DNA from: an uncultured Clostridia bacterium
Lineage (GTDB): Bacteria > Bacillota > Clostridia > Christensenellales > Borkfalkiaceae
Assembly: GCA_947625605.1 (NCBI GenBank)
Contig: CANQOY010000002.1
Span: 60,399 to 124,398, forward strand
Length of the DNA stretch: 64,000 bases
Direction: 5' to 3'
In this document: positions 1,898 through 64,000 of the stretch, in pieces
Layout: every line of letters begins with the position of its first letter
Position numbering within the stretch: position 1 is the stretch's first letter
Notes under the pieces: generated by a model
Databases searched by the model: none
Seen by the model: the letters and a program-made list of their open reading frames with translations, nothing else
Told to the model about the DNA's origin: nothing
Translations under genes and position numbers: made by a program

Positions 1898-2470
1898 ATG
1901 GATAAGAAACGGTGCAATTTCAGCTTCGGGGCAAGGGAGGCTCGTGTTTCCGAGAAGTCGCTGCTCTACCACGATACGCGGTGGTGCAAGCCCGAACATC
2001 GGGACGGAGAGCTCTTTGCCATGCTCGTGTTGGAGGGAATGCAGGCGGGCGTCAGCTGGAATCTGATCTTGAACAAAGAGGAGAACTTCCGCAGGGCGTT
2101 CGACGGCTTCGACCCGAAAACCGTGGCGGCTTACGACGAGCGGAAGATTAGAGCGCTCATGCAGGACAAAGGCATCATCCGCAACCGCAGAAAGATCGAA
2201 GCGGCGATCGCGAATGCGCGTGCCTTCCTGCAAGTGCAGGAGGAGTTCGGGAGTTTCGACGCCTTCATCTGGAACTTTACGGACGGAAAGACAATCGACC
2301 ATCATTTAACGGACTTGAAGGACATGCCCGCCAAAGACGGGCTCTCGGAAAGGATCAGCGCGGAGCTCAAAAGGCGCGGGTTCCGGTTTGTGGGCCCCAC
2401 CATTGTGTACTCCTATTTGCAGGGGATCGGCGTCATCAACGACCATTGGGAATGCTGCGACTTCCGATAG
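1898..2470 (+). CDS. tag: DNA-3-methyladenine glycosylase I
   Basis: MDKKRCNFSF...YHDTRWCKPEHRDGELFAMLVLEGMQAGVSWNLILNKEENFRRAFDGFD is typical of the Tag family. Confidence 0.92.
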   Translation: MDKKRCNFSFGAREARVSEKSLLYHDTRWCKPEHRDGELFAMLVLEGMQAGVSWNLILNKEENFRRAFDGFDPKTVAAYDERKIRALMQDKGIIRNRRKIEAAIANARAFLQVQEEFGSFDAFIWNFTDGKTIDHHLTDLKDMPAKDGLSERISAELKRRGFRFVGPTIVYSYLQGIGVINDHWECCDFR

Positions 2471-2528
2471 ACGGCTTCGGCACAGTACATGTCCGAAAGT
2501 CTGCCCATAAAAATGTATTTTTTACAAA

Positions 2529-2558
2529 GCCCCCGAGCACATGCCAACGCTCGGGGGC
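2529..2558. terminator. Hairpin GCCCCCGAGC-N10-GCTCGGGGGC between convergent genes
   Basis: Perfect 10-bp arms. Confidence 0.7.
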
Positions 2559-2618
2559 TTCAAAATAACAGAATAGATACGCGCTCGCGAAGAGCAAATG
2601 CGCCCGCGCAAGTGAGGT

Positions 2619-3467
2619 CTATTTGCGGCGTTCGGCGCGGCGCTTCATGAGAGCGCGGATCCAAAACGGCGACGAGACCACGGCGTAGGCGGGGATCAGG
2701 TACACAAATGCGGGCACAATGAGCCACAGCACGGGAAAATGAAAGGGCGCTCCGCCATTGATATGGAAGGCGTCCGTCTTAAAGAAAACGGGCACGAGCG
2801 GATCGAGCAGGCGAGACGCGATCGCAAAATCAGGCCGCACGCCGAACGCAAAGCCGAAGTTGCGGAATGCGGGGTCCAAAAGGTCGGAGAAGTCCGCATC
2901 CACGAGCCCGATCCCTACGACGAACAGCTCGTTGAGGCAGATGAGCGCTTCATGCGCCAAAAACAGAAGCGGGATCGCCCAGAACTTTTTGAGCCGCGGG
3001 CGGTAGACGCCGACGATCGCAGCCGCCATGGGTACGGCAAAGAGGTTGATATGGCAAAAGTAGAACCGGATCGTCTCGAAGGCGAAGGGCGGGGCGCCGA
3101 TCGCTGTGGGATAAAAGATCGCGGCGAGACCGCCGACCACGCCGATGAAGAATGTGTAATCGTGCAGGACGTTCTGTTTGCCGATCAAGTAGATGAACGG
3201 GAAAACGAGCGTCGAGACCGCGCAGATGTTTTCGGGCGTGATATGAACGGCGGACGCGGGGAGACCGTTTCGGTATGTCGGAAAGGCGAGCTTGAAAAAG
3301 TGCAGGGCGAGATTCAAAAACAGGATCGCGGCAAAAACGATGCGCGCCGTATTGCGCCGTCTCTTGTACAGGATCAAGGAGAGCACGACGAGGTACGCCG
3401 CCGCAATCGCGATATACAGGAAATAATATCCGTTTCCCAATCTGATAACGCCCATATTCTTTCTCAT
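2619..3467 (-). CDS. Multi-pass membrane protein, YwaF/TIGR02206-like
   Basis: 282 aa, many hydrophobic segments; ALHFFKLAFPTYRNGLPASAVHITPENICAVSTLVFPF resembles the YwaF family. Confidence 0.6.
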   Translation of the reverse strand: MRKNMGVIRLGNGYYFLYIAIAAAYLVVLSLILYKRRRNTARIVFAAILFLNLALHFFKLAFPTYRNGLPASAVHITPENICAVSTLVFPFIYLIGKQNVLHDYTFFIGVVGGLAAIFYPTAIGAPPFAFETIRFYFCHINLFAVPMAAAIVGVYRPRLKKFWAIPLLFLAHEALICLNELFVVGIGLVDADFSDLLDPAFRNFGFAFGVRPDFAIASRLLDPLVPVFFKTDAFHINGGAPFHFPVLWLIVPAFVYLIPAYAVVSSPFWIRALMKRRAERRK

Positions 3468-3490
3468 TTGCGTTTTTTGAGGTTTGAAGT

Positions 3491-3520
3491 CATCCGCCGC
3501 CGCAGCTGCGGCGGCGGATG
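3491..3520. repeat. 30-bp perfect palindrome CATCCGCCGCCGCAGCTGCGGCGGCGGATG
   Basis: Read directly from sequence; intergenic between two - strand genes. Confidence 0.85.
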
Positions 3521-3562
3521 GAGAAAATCAAGCGGGGCACGGGCGGCCCGAGACGGGCCGCT

Positions 3563-6500
3563 TTAATCTTCTTTGCCGGGGATGACTGTCTCGGAGACCA
3601 TTCTGGCCAAGGCGGCGGCCTCGGCGCTGACGGCCTGTTCGGGCGTGGAGCCGTCCGGCCATTCGATCCCCTTCCCGATCAACGACTCTTTGAGATCTTC
3701 AATGTGGCTCTTCCTGTCGGCGATCAGAGAAGGATCGCGGTACACTTTTTGCACGTGCCACATGATATGCTGCGTGTTCCAGACTGGCGTTCCGTCCTCC
3801 TCCATCGACGTGTACTGGCAGAGAAGGCGGATATAGCGATCGTCGGTGAATAACTTGCTCATATCGCGCATGCCCGTTGTATCTTTTGCGGGAGTGGGCC
3901 CGCCGTCAAGCGTCGAATCGTCGTTGTAGATCCATCCTTCAAACATGCCGCCGAAGTGCATTTCTGTCGATTTGATCATCGAACCGTCCCCTATGGGAAT
4001 GGGGCCGGATTTCTGTTCGGTACCGTATTGAGGGTGCAGAGGCAGTGTATACTGCGTGCCGTCCCACCAAAACTTATTGAAGTCCGTCCCGTTGGCAAGC
4101 CCGACCAAAACGGCGTTGATGAATGCGTTTTCCGTGGCTTCTGGATGGCCGTCGCTACCCGTTCTGAACAAATCTTTCTTTTGCCCGAACCATTCCAACC
4201 GAGAGGTTGCCGCCAATGCGGAATTTTCGATCGTTTGGCCGAGTTTCAGGGCGCCCATATCCATCATATCGGCTTTTGCGCCAAGGTCGGTGGGATTGAC
4301 ATAGTTGAGCGCATCCAGGAACCCTCTCAGATAGAAGGTATTGCAGGGGCCGTAACCCATCGAACAAATGCCCATCATGCACTCGGTCTCAACGACATTT
4401 TCGATGTAGGCATCGGAGTAGCCCTTCCCCTCGATCACCGTATAATTCGGCATGCTGGGGTAGGGACGCACGGCCTCGTAGGAAGCCCAAAGCATGACTG
4501 CCTGCTGCGAGCAGAAGCGCAGAGTCGTATTCTTGATGAAGATCCGGTTTTGATCCTTCCCGTCCGTGCTCTTGAATGAGTAGTTGCTGTATAGTTTCGT
4601 ATAATACTGCAAATCGGAATAGTAGATCCCTTTGAGGCGGATATACTGCCTTACCGTCAAAACATTGACTTTCTCTGTCGGGTTACAGCCCTTGACGGTT
4701 ACGTTGTACAGCGTGCCGAAATCCACCGTCGCGCTGTTGTTGTAGTTTGTGTTCGGTATCGTCTTATGGCGCGCTTCGAGGTTGATCTGATAGCCGTTGC
4801 CGTAGATCAAGGCCTTGCCCAACTTGGTGGAATCCACGCCGCTCGGCGTCGAGGTCTCGTTCAGGAACAAGCCCTTTTCGTTCGCCTCGGCCTTCTTTCG
4901 TTCTGCTTCCGCGCCTTCGCCGTCGAGTTCGCCCGGCCCATAGAGATCCTCATGCAGCACCACCTTCGCGTGCGCGTAGTAGCCCGCGGCGTCAAAGACG
5001 TTGCAGAGATCGTCGCCTTCGAGGACGTTGAAGTTGAAGTGCTCGCTCGTGCCGCCCTTCGCGCCGATGCCCGCCTCCACGCGGAGGAAGCCATAGGCGT
5101 TTGCGGAGGGTGTAAAGAGCCTGCCGCTTCCGTCGTAATCATCCGCATGCCCGGGCACGGCCTGCCACTGCTCCGCCTCTGCGAAGTTTCCGAAGTAGTC
5201 GTTCTGCACGTCGCTCTCCGAAAGGCCGCCGAACTCGCCGAAATAGATGCGGGCAAAGCCCTCTTCGGAATAGATATCCACCCACGGCACGCGCGTCCGG
5301 CCGGAAGCATATCTGCCGTCTGTGTCGACGACCGTATCTCCGCTCGCGGTCTGCAAGACATAGTGTCCGCCGTTCTCCACGATCGTATATTCCGCGCCGC
5401 CGTACGTCACATTCATCCCGCGTTGGGTGATGACGAAGTCCGTCGGCGCATTCTCCTTCCAGCCCGTGAGCGTCCATGTGAGCAGGGAGAGATCTTCGGC
5501 ATGCGTCCCGGTCGCAAGATCGCTCAGGACGACGAGCGGGATCTTGAAGTAGTCCACCTCGGTGCCGCCGTAATCGCTGTGCTTCGCGAACACGCGCACC
5601 TGCTGATACCCCTTGTAGACGTCTCCACCGTTCGTCCTATCCCCGCTGTCGAAGCCCGTGAATTCGATGCTCTCGATGTTGCTCCGCGTCAGGACGAGAG
5701 TGACGGAGTTTTCGCCGCAGACAAAGACGAGCTCTGCGTTTACGAAATAAGGATGCTCCGCGGGAAGGGTCACGTCGATCTTTCTGTTCGCGACATTGAC
5801 AGCTGTGGGCCACTCCCATCCGTTTGCCTCGTCGCGGAGGGAGAAGTATGCCTCCATGAGCTCCTCGGTGAGGCCGCCGAGCATGCGGTCTGCATCCAGC
5901 CCGTCGATACAGAGGGAGAATACCCCGTTCATCGCCTTGGGGAAGGTGAATTCGACCGGAGAAGAGGACGCGTCGACGGAAAATGGCTCGCATGTTTCGA
6001 CATCGCCGCTTACCTGATACTCCAAATAATAGACGAGTTCCTGCTCGGCGAGAGAAGTCCTTACGACATGGAGCGTAAAGGAAGCCTTGCCGCTCGCGAA
6101 CACGATCTCCGAGGCGCCCGAGGGGATCTCAATGCCCTCGATGACGGCGGAATCCCCCGCCGCGGTCAAGCGATCGTATGTGCCGCCCGCCGACCACTGC
6201 ACCGTCTTATCCGTGATCGCCTTGCCGTCCGCACGGCCGATGGTCACATAGAACCCGAGCAAATCGAGGAAGGTGGTATACGTCTCTCCGTCGCTGAGCG
6301 CTTCGTTGCCATACCTGACCTCAATGCGGTCCGCAGGGGCTGCGATGCGGACATGGATGGGGTATTCGACGCCCGCCACGGTGAGCGTGAAGTCCTCCCC
6401 TCCCCCTTCCTCTGCGGTGAGCGTAACGGAGGCGACGTTCTCCGAAACGGTGCCGATCCGATAGCCGAAGTGCGCATTGCGGCTGATCGAGATCTTCTCC

Positions 6501-53371: not shown

Positions 53372-54454
53372 TTACGCGATGGTAGCGGGCCGTTCGACGA
53401 CGGTCGTCCCAAACGCCGAGAAAGTGATGGACGAGCTCGCAGTCACTTTATAGCCGAGATCGGCGGTGATCTTGGACTCCACCTTGGAGAGTCTGCCGTC
53501 CTTCACATAGTATTTGAGGGAAGCGCTCACGGAGGCGCCGGGGGCAAGGCTGCCGAGCGCCTCGCCGACATACTTGTTGAGGAATGCCTCCTGGATCTTG
53601 AAGCCGTAGCTCGTCTTTTCGAAGTAGCTGTAATCGATATCGGGGAGGCAGAGCGTGGCGAAGCTTTCCATATTGTATACGCCGTATTCCGCGAAGGAGT
53701 TGCTGGAATCTTTCACATAGCTTGCGCCCTTGTCCAGGCTCAGCCATGTGTCGAACGTCGCGCCGTCCTCAAAATATCCGTAGATCGTCATATATGAGAA
53801 CTTGCCGGTCATCATGCTTGCGGTATCGTTGAGGTCGGGCATGGTCATTTCGAGGAGCGCCTTGTCCGTCGCGCACTTGATGACGTAGTCGATGTTCATG
53901 GAGATCCCTTGGGAAGAGCTCTTCGCCGTGTATTTCTGCGTGCAGTTCACATACTTTGCGGAATCGAGCACGTCCGCAAAATAGCTGCGCGTGAGCGCGT
54001 CGCCGTTTTCGGCCTTGGGGACATAGTAACGGAACTCATGGACCACCGCGCCGGACGGGGAGATCTCGATGATGTACACGGTGAATACGAAAGTATCTTC
54101 CTCTTCCGCGGCGAGAGAGGCCGCGCCCGCGACATTCCTCGTGTAAGAGATATCGACGATCTTCGCGGAGACGATGGTATCCCCCTCTTCGAGCGCGTCG
54201 CCCGTATCGAGGCCCGCGATCTCTTCGGAAGAGAGCGTACCGACTTCCTTGACCTCTTTCAGCTGCGCCCTTGCGGCTTCACCCGAGATCTCGTTGTCGA
54301 GGAAGGCCTCGGCCGCTTCCTGCTGCGAAACGTAGCTGTCCTCGGAGATCGCGCCCGCGAACGTATCCACATTGCCGGATCCGCAGGCGGTAAACCCGAT
54401 CGCCATGATCGCAACGAGCAATGCCGCAACGATCAATCTGATTGACTTTTTCAT
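53372..54454 (-). CDS. Secreted lipoprotein of unknown function
   Basis: MKKSIRLIVAALLVAIMAIGFTACGSG lipobox. Confidence 0.85.
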   Translation of the reverse strand: MKKSIRLIVAALLVAIMAIGFTACGSGNVDTFAGAISEDSYVSQQEAAEAFLDNEISGEAARAQLKEVKEVGTLSSEEIAGLDTGDALEEGDTIVSAKIVDISYTRNVAGAASLAAEEEDTFVFTVYIIEISPSGAVVHEFRYYVPKAENGDALTRSYFADVLDSAKYVNCTQKYTAKSSSQGISMNIDYVIKCATDKALLEMTMPDLNDTASMMTGKFSYMTIYGYFEDGATFDTWLSLDKGASYVKDSSNSFAEYGVYNMESFATLCLPDIDYSYFEKTSYGFKIQEAFLNKYVGEALGSLAPGASVSASLKYYVKDGRLSKVESKITADLGYKVTASSSITFSAFGTTVVERPATIA

Positions 54455-54508: not shown

Positions 54509-54538
54509 ATTATACCCCCCCCCCTACCGAGATGTCAA
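54509..54538 (-). promoter_or_regulatory. Promoter TTGACA-18 bp-TATAAT with a G10 tract in the spacer
   Basis: - strand TTGACAtctcggtaGGGGGGGGGGTATAAT. Confidence 0.9.
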
Positions 54539-62183: not shown

Positions 62184-63935
62184 TCAGGTCAATTCATAAT
62201 CATAGACGACCTTCTGAGAATTAGGAGCGTATACCAAACTCTCAAATTCACTCCAATTCTCCTTAGAACCCGTATAGCAAAGCTGCAAAGGCACGTCTCT
62301 GCTACCGCACCCACGGAATATTGTACTCGGAGACCATGATGTGTTGCTTTTGCTGTTCCCAAAAGTCGCCGATTCGATTTTCGTCTGGAACACGGCCTTG
62401 CTCAAATTCTTATTGTTTTGGAAAACATAAATCTGTATCTCCGATAAGCTCTTCGGGAAGACAATTTCACGGATGTCGGCTCCGCTGAACGCGCATTCTT
62501 TGATCGTTGTTATGCCCTCGGGCAGAACAATTTCTTGAAGGCTTGAACAATCCAAAAATGCGTTGATCTCAATGCTCTCCAACCCTGCCTCGGGCAAGGT
62601 CACTTCCGAGAGGCTGCTGCACTCGGCAAAGGCGATTTCCGGAATTTCCTTAATCGTCGCATCGGACATATCGACCGAAACAAGCGACTTCGCTTCATAA
62701 AAGATCGACCCTCCCAACGTGGTCTCTCCCTTGATCGTGACGTCTTCCAACCCTTTGACGGAACGAAAGGCATATGCGCCGTAAGTTGCGTTGCCTTCCA
62801 AGACGAGATGTTCGATGGTTGCGCCCGCAAACGCGCCGGGGCCGACATTGACGCCCTCCTGAATGACAAGCGTGCCGATATGCAGGTTTACGTTCGGGTT
62901 CGTCTTTGCGCTGTCGATGCCACGCAACCATTGGCGAACGGCATAACCATTTTCCTCAACCACTTCCTCCGAGACCGCTTCCTTGACCGTAACTTCTGCG
63001 CCATTGAGCGTCGACGCGATCGTGAGATCGCCGCCTTCCTCGACCAAATCGGGGGAGATGGTCACTTCGTTTTTGCCCTCTTCATTGGTTTCATAATGGC
63101 CTTCCAGCTGATTCTTGCCGCACACCGTGCAGACGCCGTCGGCAAATTGATGGCCGAGCGCTTCCACGCTCTCTACGACATTCATTCCGCAAACGGTGCA
63201 AGTTTTCATGACCAAGCCACGAGTGGTACAGCCCGCCTCGACGATCGTCGTCGGTTCCGCTTCGCCGAACGTGTGCTCGTTCAAGCAACTTGCAAATGTG
63301 AACGATTCTTCCGTACCGTCGGTAAAAGTTACGGTCAGCCGGTTGCCTTTCGTCTCAAAGTTTTGGAAGCCTTTCCCGGCAATGGAGCCGAGCGGGGTCC
63401 ATTCATCGTCTGCGCCGAGCTGCCAGACGGCGAAAGTGGATGTATTCAGATAGAAGTCGCCTTTCAGCGCGTCTTTGAGGGCGGGATCTCCCTCCGGATA
63501 CTCGTTGGGATCGATGTCGCCCGAGAACCAGATAACGCCGTCGCGCCCCGGCTGCCCTTTCAATGTAAGAATGGACGAACCCCAATCGCTCGCGGCTTTC
63601 TTTTGATAGAGTTCGCCGCTCTCGGTATTGAGATAGAAGTCGTTCTGCTGGCCGATCGAGGGAAGCGGGGCTTCCGTGCCGTAATACCAATTCACGTCTA
63701 CTTCCTGCCATTCATCGCCCGATTTGACGAAGCTTGCAAGGCTCGACGTGTTGAGATAATAGTCCCCCTCTTTGCCGAAGTCTTCCTTGGGTGCGGAAGC
63801 GCCATAGTACCAAGTGCTATTCTCCGCCGTCGTTTCGCCCGAATTGCACGCGCAGAACACGCCGAGCGCAAGCGACAGAATGCACGCGCAGAGGATCGTA
63901 AGAAGCATTCCGATCCGTTTTCTTGTTTTGTTCAT
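62184..63935 (-). CDS. BspA-like leucine-rich repeat surface lipoprotein
   Basis: Lipobox SLALGVFCAC; WYYGxxAPxxxxGxxxDFYLNT repeats; LRR_5-like EVTLPEAGLESIEINAFLDCSSLQEIVLPEGITTIKECAFSGADIREIVFP. Confidence 0.88.
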   Translation of the reverse strand: MNKTRKRIGMLLTILCACILSLALGVFCACNSGETTAENSTWYYGASAPKEDFGKEGDYYLNTSSLASFVKSGDEWQEVDVNWYYGTEAPLPSIGQQNDFYLNTESGELYQKKAASDWGSSILTLKGQPGRDGVIWFSGDIDPNEYPEGDPALKDALKGDFYLNTSTFAVWQLGADDEWTPLGSIAGKGFQNFETKGNRLTVTFTDGTEESFTFASCLNEHTFGEAEPTTIVEAGCTTRGLVMKTCTVCGMNVVESVEALGHQFADGVCTVCGKNQLEGHYETNEEGKNEVTISPDLVEEGGDLTIASTLNGAEVTVKEAVSEEVVEENGYAVRQWLRGIDSAKTNPNVNLHIGTLVIQEGVNVGPGAFAGATIEHLVLEGNATYGAYAFRSVKGLEDVTIKGETTLGGSIFYEAKSLVSVDMSDATIKEIPEIAFAECSSLSEVTLPEAGLESIEINAFLDCSSLQEIVLPEGITTIKECAFSGADIREIVFPKSLSEIQIYVFQNNKNLSKAVFQTKIESATFGNSKSNTSWSPSTIFRGCGSRDVPLQLCYTGSKENWSEFESLVYAPNSQKVVYDYELT

Positions 63936-63985
63936 GTCTTCCTCCGAGTAGAGATTTCCACATTGATCATGGATCTTATACTCTC

Positions 63986-64000
63986 ATTTTACCCCCCCCC
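63986..64000 (-). promoter_or_regulatory. G>=9 tract abutting -10-like TAAAAT upstream of LRR lipoprotein, cut by window end
   Basis: - strand GGGGGGGGGTAAAATGAGAG. Confidence 0.65.

Follow-up and report, generated by a model that had tools for sequence, protein, structure and literature searches.

Poly-G tracts in the promoter spacers of lipoprotein genes in an uncultured genus of Clostridia as candidate phase-variable switches

A G tract and a lipoprotein gene at the contig end

The window, a stretch of 64,000 nucleotides (positions 60399-124398 of contig C2 in genome G000), ends in a G tract ahead of a leucine-rich repeat (LRR) lipoprotein gene, and a companion promoter with a similar tract precedes a second lipoprotein gene within it. 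The features of the two loci are as follows.

63992-64000, minus strand: G tract of at least nine G, GGGGGGGGG, truncated where the contig stops; putative spacer between the -35 box and the -10 box
63986-63991, minus strand: -10 box TAAAAT adjoining the G tract; box and leader are common to the orthologue L323 and to paralogues
63941-63945, minus strand: Shine-Dalgarno sequence GGAGG, read in the sequence
62184-63935, minus strand: BspA-type LRR lipoprotein of 583 aa, with a lipobox near residue 29 and PF13306 repeats
54509-54538, minus strand: companion G-tract promoter (TTGACA, 8 nt, G10, TATAAT) with an 18-bp spacer
53372-54454, minus strand: lipoprotein gene of 360 aa with a lipobox, behind the companion promoter

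The first-pass annotation had described G9-TAAAAT about 50 nt ahead of the ATG at 63935, and this is borne out on the minus strand (tract at 64000-63992, box at 63991-63986), with 50 nt from box to ATG and a good Shine-Dalgarno sequence in between. The 583-aa product contains BspA-type repeats (LRR_5, PF13306, E 3.6e-32), matched PDB entries 4fs7 and 4gt6, and has an N-terminal module of 188 aa in common with its paralogues. Both the lipobox and the LRR_5 repeats are seen in it, and they suggest that the protein would be exposed at the cell surface. The companion promoter at 54509 is likewise real: TTGACA (54538-54533) is followed by G10 (54524-54515), which adjoins TATAAT (54514-54509), and the box lies 54 nt from the ATG at 54454. 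Its 360-aa lipoprotein showed no match in Pfam or NCBIfam.

Since position 64000 is the last base of contig C2 (124398 bp), the -35 box of the window locus is unreadable in the assembly, and its tract length is truncated and doubtful, so that only "at least nine" can be said. None of the other contig ends of the genome that were checked for the missing box fits. Contig C3, the only one of these to end in TTGAC, overlaps the start of contig C37 and was rejected as the partner.

The best orthologues of the window protein, at 67-71% identity, are found in genomes G098, G052 and G044. The G052 orthologue (L111/L323) has a whole promoter, TTGACA-AAAAATC-G9-TAAAAT, with a spacer of 16 bp, and its leader aligns with that of the window; in G044 the contig likewise stops at the tract (G13), and in G098 it stops within the leader. 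Among 40 homologous upstream regions picked by protein similarity alone, the full promoter is visible in 29, with G8-G10 beside TTGAC in 19 and without it in 10; in four the contig breaks off at the tract or at most 10 nt away (L258, L264, L269 and L287), and seven stop short of the promoter. The TTGACA predicted by the first-pass annotation beyond the tract is therefore present in the G052 orthologue and in the majority of the paralogues that share this leader; at the window locus, itself unread, such a box would be expected by comparison. A homopolymer lies between the two boxes at the companion promoter, at a paralogue on contig C5 and at the G052 orthologue, while the window locus, cut by the contig end, displays the -10 side only.

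Tract-free promoters occur in the same family. Seven G098 paralogues with a 17-bp spacer (L266, L273, L276, L277, L283, L284 and L285) carry a window-type leader with a conserved 5' hairpin, TGCCCCCATGGGGGCA followed by GTTCGTCATGAAATGACGAAC or near variants. In paralogues L272 and L274 (G033 and G044), palindromes resembling CACTATAGTG are repeated across the 17-bp promoter and probably form a repressor site.

Recurrence of G-tract promoters and the genes behind them

Across 691 kb of the window's genome, the number of G/C runs drops about tenfold per base, from 980 of length 5 to 99 of length 6, 6 of length 7 and zero of length 8. Five runs of 9-11 nevertheless occur, and they are all the runs of at least 8 genome-wide. 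The long G tracts are therefore not a product of chance. Two of the five belong to complete TTGACA promoters, one is the truncated tract at the window end, one is coding and one is intergenic without boxes. The first-pass annotation had named long tracts away from promoters as a refutation, and two of the five are of this kind, one of them coding and one unexplained; three of five at promoters is nonetheless far above chance. The suggestion of a further G-tract promoter before a surface lipoprotein was supported, which brings their number in this genome to three or more. The C5 paralogue lies behind the promoter TTGACA-GT-G10-CGAG-TAGAAT; it is a lipoprotein whose identity to the window protein is 53% across the first 188 residues.

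The coding run is a G11 on the minus strand of contig C18 (L039, 17983-17993), where a 569-aa ORF stops just past the tract and its continuation, with a CBM_4_9 match, lies in another frame; it is likely a coding (translational) slippage switch. The same contig has a promoter with a shorter G7 ahead of a 972-aa lipoprotein with InlB-type repeats. The G9/C9 run on contig C20 (L041, 2022-2030) is flanked by a lipoprotein ORF (1022-1963) and by a 999-aa ORF (2176-5175), and no promoter boxes were found around it.

All of the evidence is comparative and comes mostly from metagenome assemblies. Using the pattern TTGACA-N0-12-G7-N0-10-TAnnnT, for which one promoter may yield more than one row, TTGACA-Gn-TAnnnT was found in 86 of 101 genomes of the genus (446 rows), with a maximum of about 25 rows in one genome; the same pattern reversed gave 1 row. 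The equivalent poly-C pattern gave 27 rows in 19 genomes. Poly-G thus exceeds poly-C by more than tenfold (446 against 27 rows), an excess for which slippage alone gives no account. At the level of the order, the pattern was present in 89 of 297 genomes and in 41 of 125 genera. Among the matches listed for GTDB species genomes were Clostridia (including Borkfalkia and Pumilibacter), Saccharibacteria, Acholeplasmatales, Selenomonadaceae, Streptobacillus and others. Pumilibacter muris, for which an isolate exists, has at least 7 promoters of this class.

Some of the genomes with many matches lie far from the window's order. Streptobacillus notomytis (G400, L179) gave at least 30 rows and a Rickettsiales MAG (G406, L158) at least 19. 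In a 'Candidatus Ancillula' MAG (G404; L142 and others), the G-tract promoters number about 27 and are nearly identical to one another, most of them of the form TTGACAAGC-Gn-TGnTATAAT (n = 9 to 15).

The genes behind the promoters were sampled by promoter pattern only (25 first genes), and the same simple lipobox rule was applied to the sample and to the window's genome. Lipoproteins made up 11 of the 25 first genes against 37 of 417 ORFs (p about 1e-5), in agreement with the enrichment anticipated in the first-pass annotation. Named by reading their sequences, they include a BspA-LRR protein (L084) and collagen-like proteins (L080, L104 and L107); other genes in this position encode ABC transporter ATPases and a pseudopilin-like protein. 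G-tract promoters, as putative switches, are thus found in nearly every species of the genus and prefer genes for predicted surface lipoproteins.

Spacer length and the mechanism it suggests

In 130 distinct G-tract promoters of the genus, the spacer is 15 bp in 20, 16 bp in 28, 17 bp in 9, 18 bp in 20, 19 bp in 33 and 20 bp in 9. Among the TTGACA promoters without a tract in the window's genome, 17 bp was found in 46 of 57 (range 15-19 bp). The spacing of the genus G-tract promoters is firmly loose, which fits the expectation if the spacer slips, and 17 bp is not their usual assembled state. The trough at 17 bp is pronounced in the lists sampled from the genus and from the order, with a hint of it in the small poly-C set. 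A clean trough everywhere was rejected: tracts adjoining the -10 box in all 103 genus genomes gave 9, 7 and 21 promoters at 16, 17 and 18 bp, and 17-bp spacers are not rare in distant taxa. These counts leave avoidance of 17 bp tentative only. True avoidance, meaning that the promoters would usually be low, is no more than plausible, as the promoters are partly kin by descent and distant taxa give no clear sign of it. The first-pass annotation had noted a tract abutting the -10 box at both loci; such contact is not required, and the tract sits anywhere within the spacer. This freedom of position fits the expectation if length alone matters. Tract length itself peaks sharply at G9 (77 of 130).

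Close relatives differ in tract length at homologous promoters of the genus, and the spacing is altered with it. Two species, G001 and G056, share one promoter region with 99.75% identity downstream and 97.5% upstream, in which the single indel in about 480 bp is G8 versus G9, changing the spacer from 16 to 17 bp. Two paralogues in G033 with flanks 97% identical have G9 and G8. Tract length was equal in 12 of 18 related homologous pairs.

We propose that the window tract is quite probably the spacer of a phase-variable promoter of the porA type and one of many independent switches. The G tract would form the spacer of a sigma-70-type promoter, and slipped-strand mispairing would add or remove single G's, reversibly within a population. 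The number of G's would shift the -35 and -10 boxes toward or off the 17-bp optimum, and the change in spacing would turn transcription of the LRR lipoprotein up or down, as in phase variation of meningococcal porA. By the same reasoning this genome would hold several such switches and the genus hundreds of them, with many ahead of paralogous surface lipoproteins. The coordinated surface variation suggested in the first-pass annotation finds no support, since slippage is expected to strike each tract on its own; the tracts are independent, and nothing was found that couples them. More speculatively, the genus may hold a large repertoire of independent porA-type promoters on surface lipoproteins that is mostly switched down: the usual tract of about G9 would leave the boxes 1-2 bases off 17 bp and most promoters low, and rare slippage would raise single ones. 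We regard this extension as tentative.

A static element, in which a fixed G-run serves as a regulator-bound or structural spacer without switching, would account for the sharp G9 mode, for the large excess of poly-G over poly-C and for the few promoters that retain G7 nearly unchanged in several species (TTGACAACAAG7...). However, the tract takes any position within the spacer, its length differs between near-identical homologues, spacing spreads over 15-20 bp and a poly-C form occurs with the same layout, all of which make a fixed element unlikely. The terminal poly-G could also stem from sequencing chemistry or the assembler and be absent from the genome, given that it sits exactly at the contig end and that the contigs of homologues stop at G13 and G21, which look inflated. 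Contig ends can thus exaggerate poly-G, and the length at the window locus is therefore not to be used. Yet poly-G was absent from the other contig ends inspected in this genome, and the tract adjoins the -10 box just where those of the orthologue and paralogues lie complete in mid-contig, so that an artefact is quite improbable. Invertible promoters are a common switch for surface genes in gut bacteria, but control by inversion with an incidental G-run is hardly credible here, as the three intact promoters examined, companion or homologous, have no inverted repeats on their flanks (the window locus itself is truncated), and the close repeat pair near the companion promoter resembles the hairpin of a terminator.

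Relation to known slippage-controlled promoters

Promoters under the control of slippage have been described mainly in a small number of host-adapted pathogens. G-tract promoters are routine in one uncultured genus of Clostridia and thinner in other lineages. If phase variation is confirmed, surface make-up would differ cell by cell, and gene content would tell little of what is displayed. We found no paper linking Borkfalkia to phase variation, or slippage to Clostridia and metagenomes. Neisseria already provides examples of the mechanism; what is new, to the extent of our search, is its putative scale in uncultured Clostridia together with spacings around but rarely at 17 bp.

Tracts inside coding genes are the subject of PMC2831843. 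Among promoter tracts, the closest counterpart is porA of Neisseria meningitidis, where, in the part of PMC7864442 that recounts van der Ende 1995, poly-G between the boxes sets the -35/-10 distance around 17 bp. As described there, porA resembles the present case in having poly-G in the spacer of a surface-protein promoter; it differs in belonging to another phylum and in being one gene, compared with as many as about 25 rows in a genome and many lipoprotein paralogues here. In tprL of Treponema pallidum, poly-G is likewise tied to the promoter of a putative surface protein, and its length affects a reporter (PMC7864442). For fetA of Neisseria gonorrhoeae, expression changes with a poly-C tract in the spacer, and the strain studied was listed with just three transcriptional phase-variable genes (PMC5320596); its counterpart here is the rarer poly-C form of the genus, whereas the main form has the opposite strand C-rich. 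In Bifidobacterium breve, also a gut commensal, pili as surface structures are reported to be switched by replication slippage (PMC9187656).
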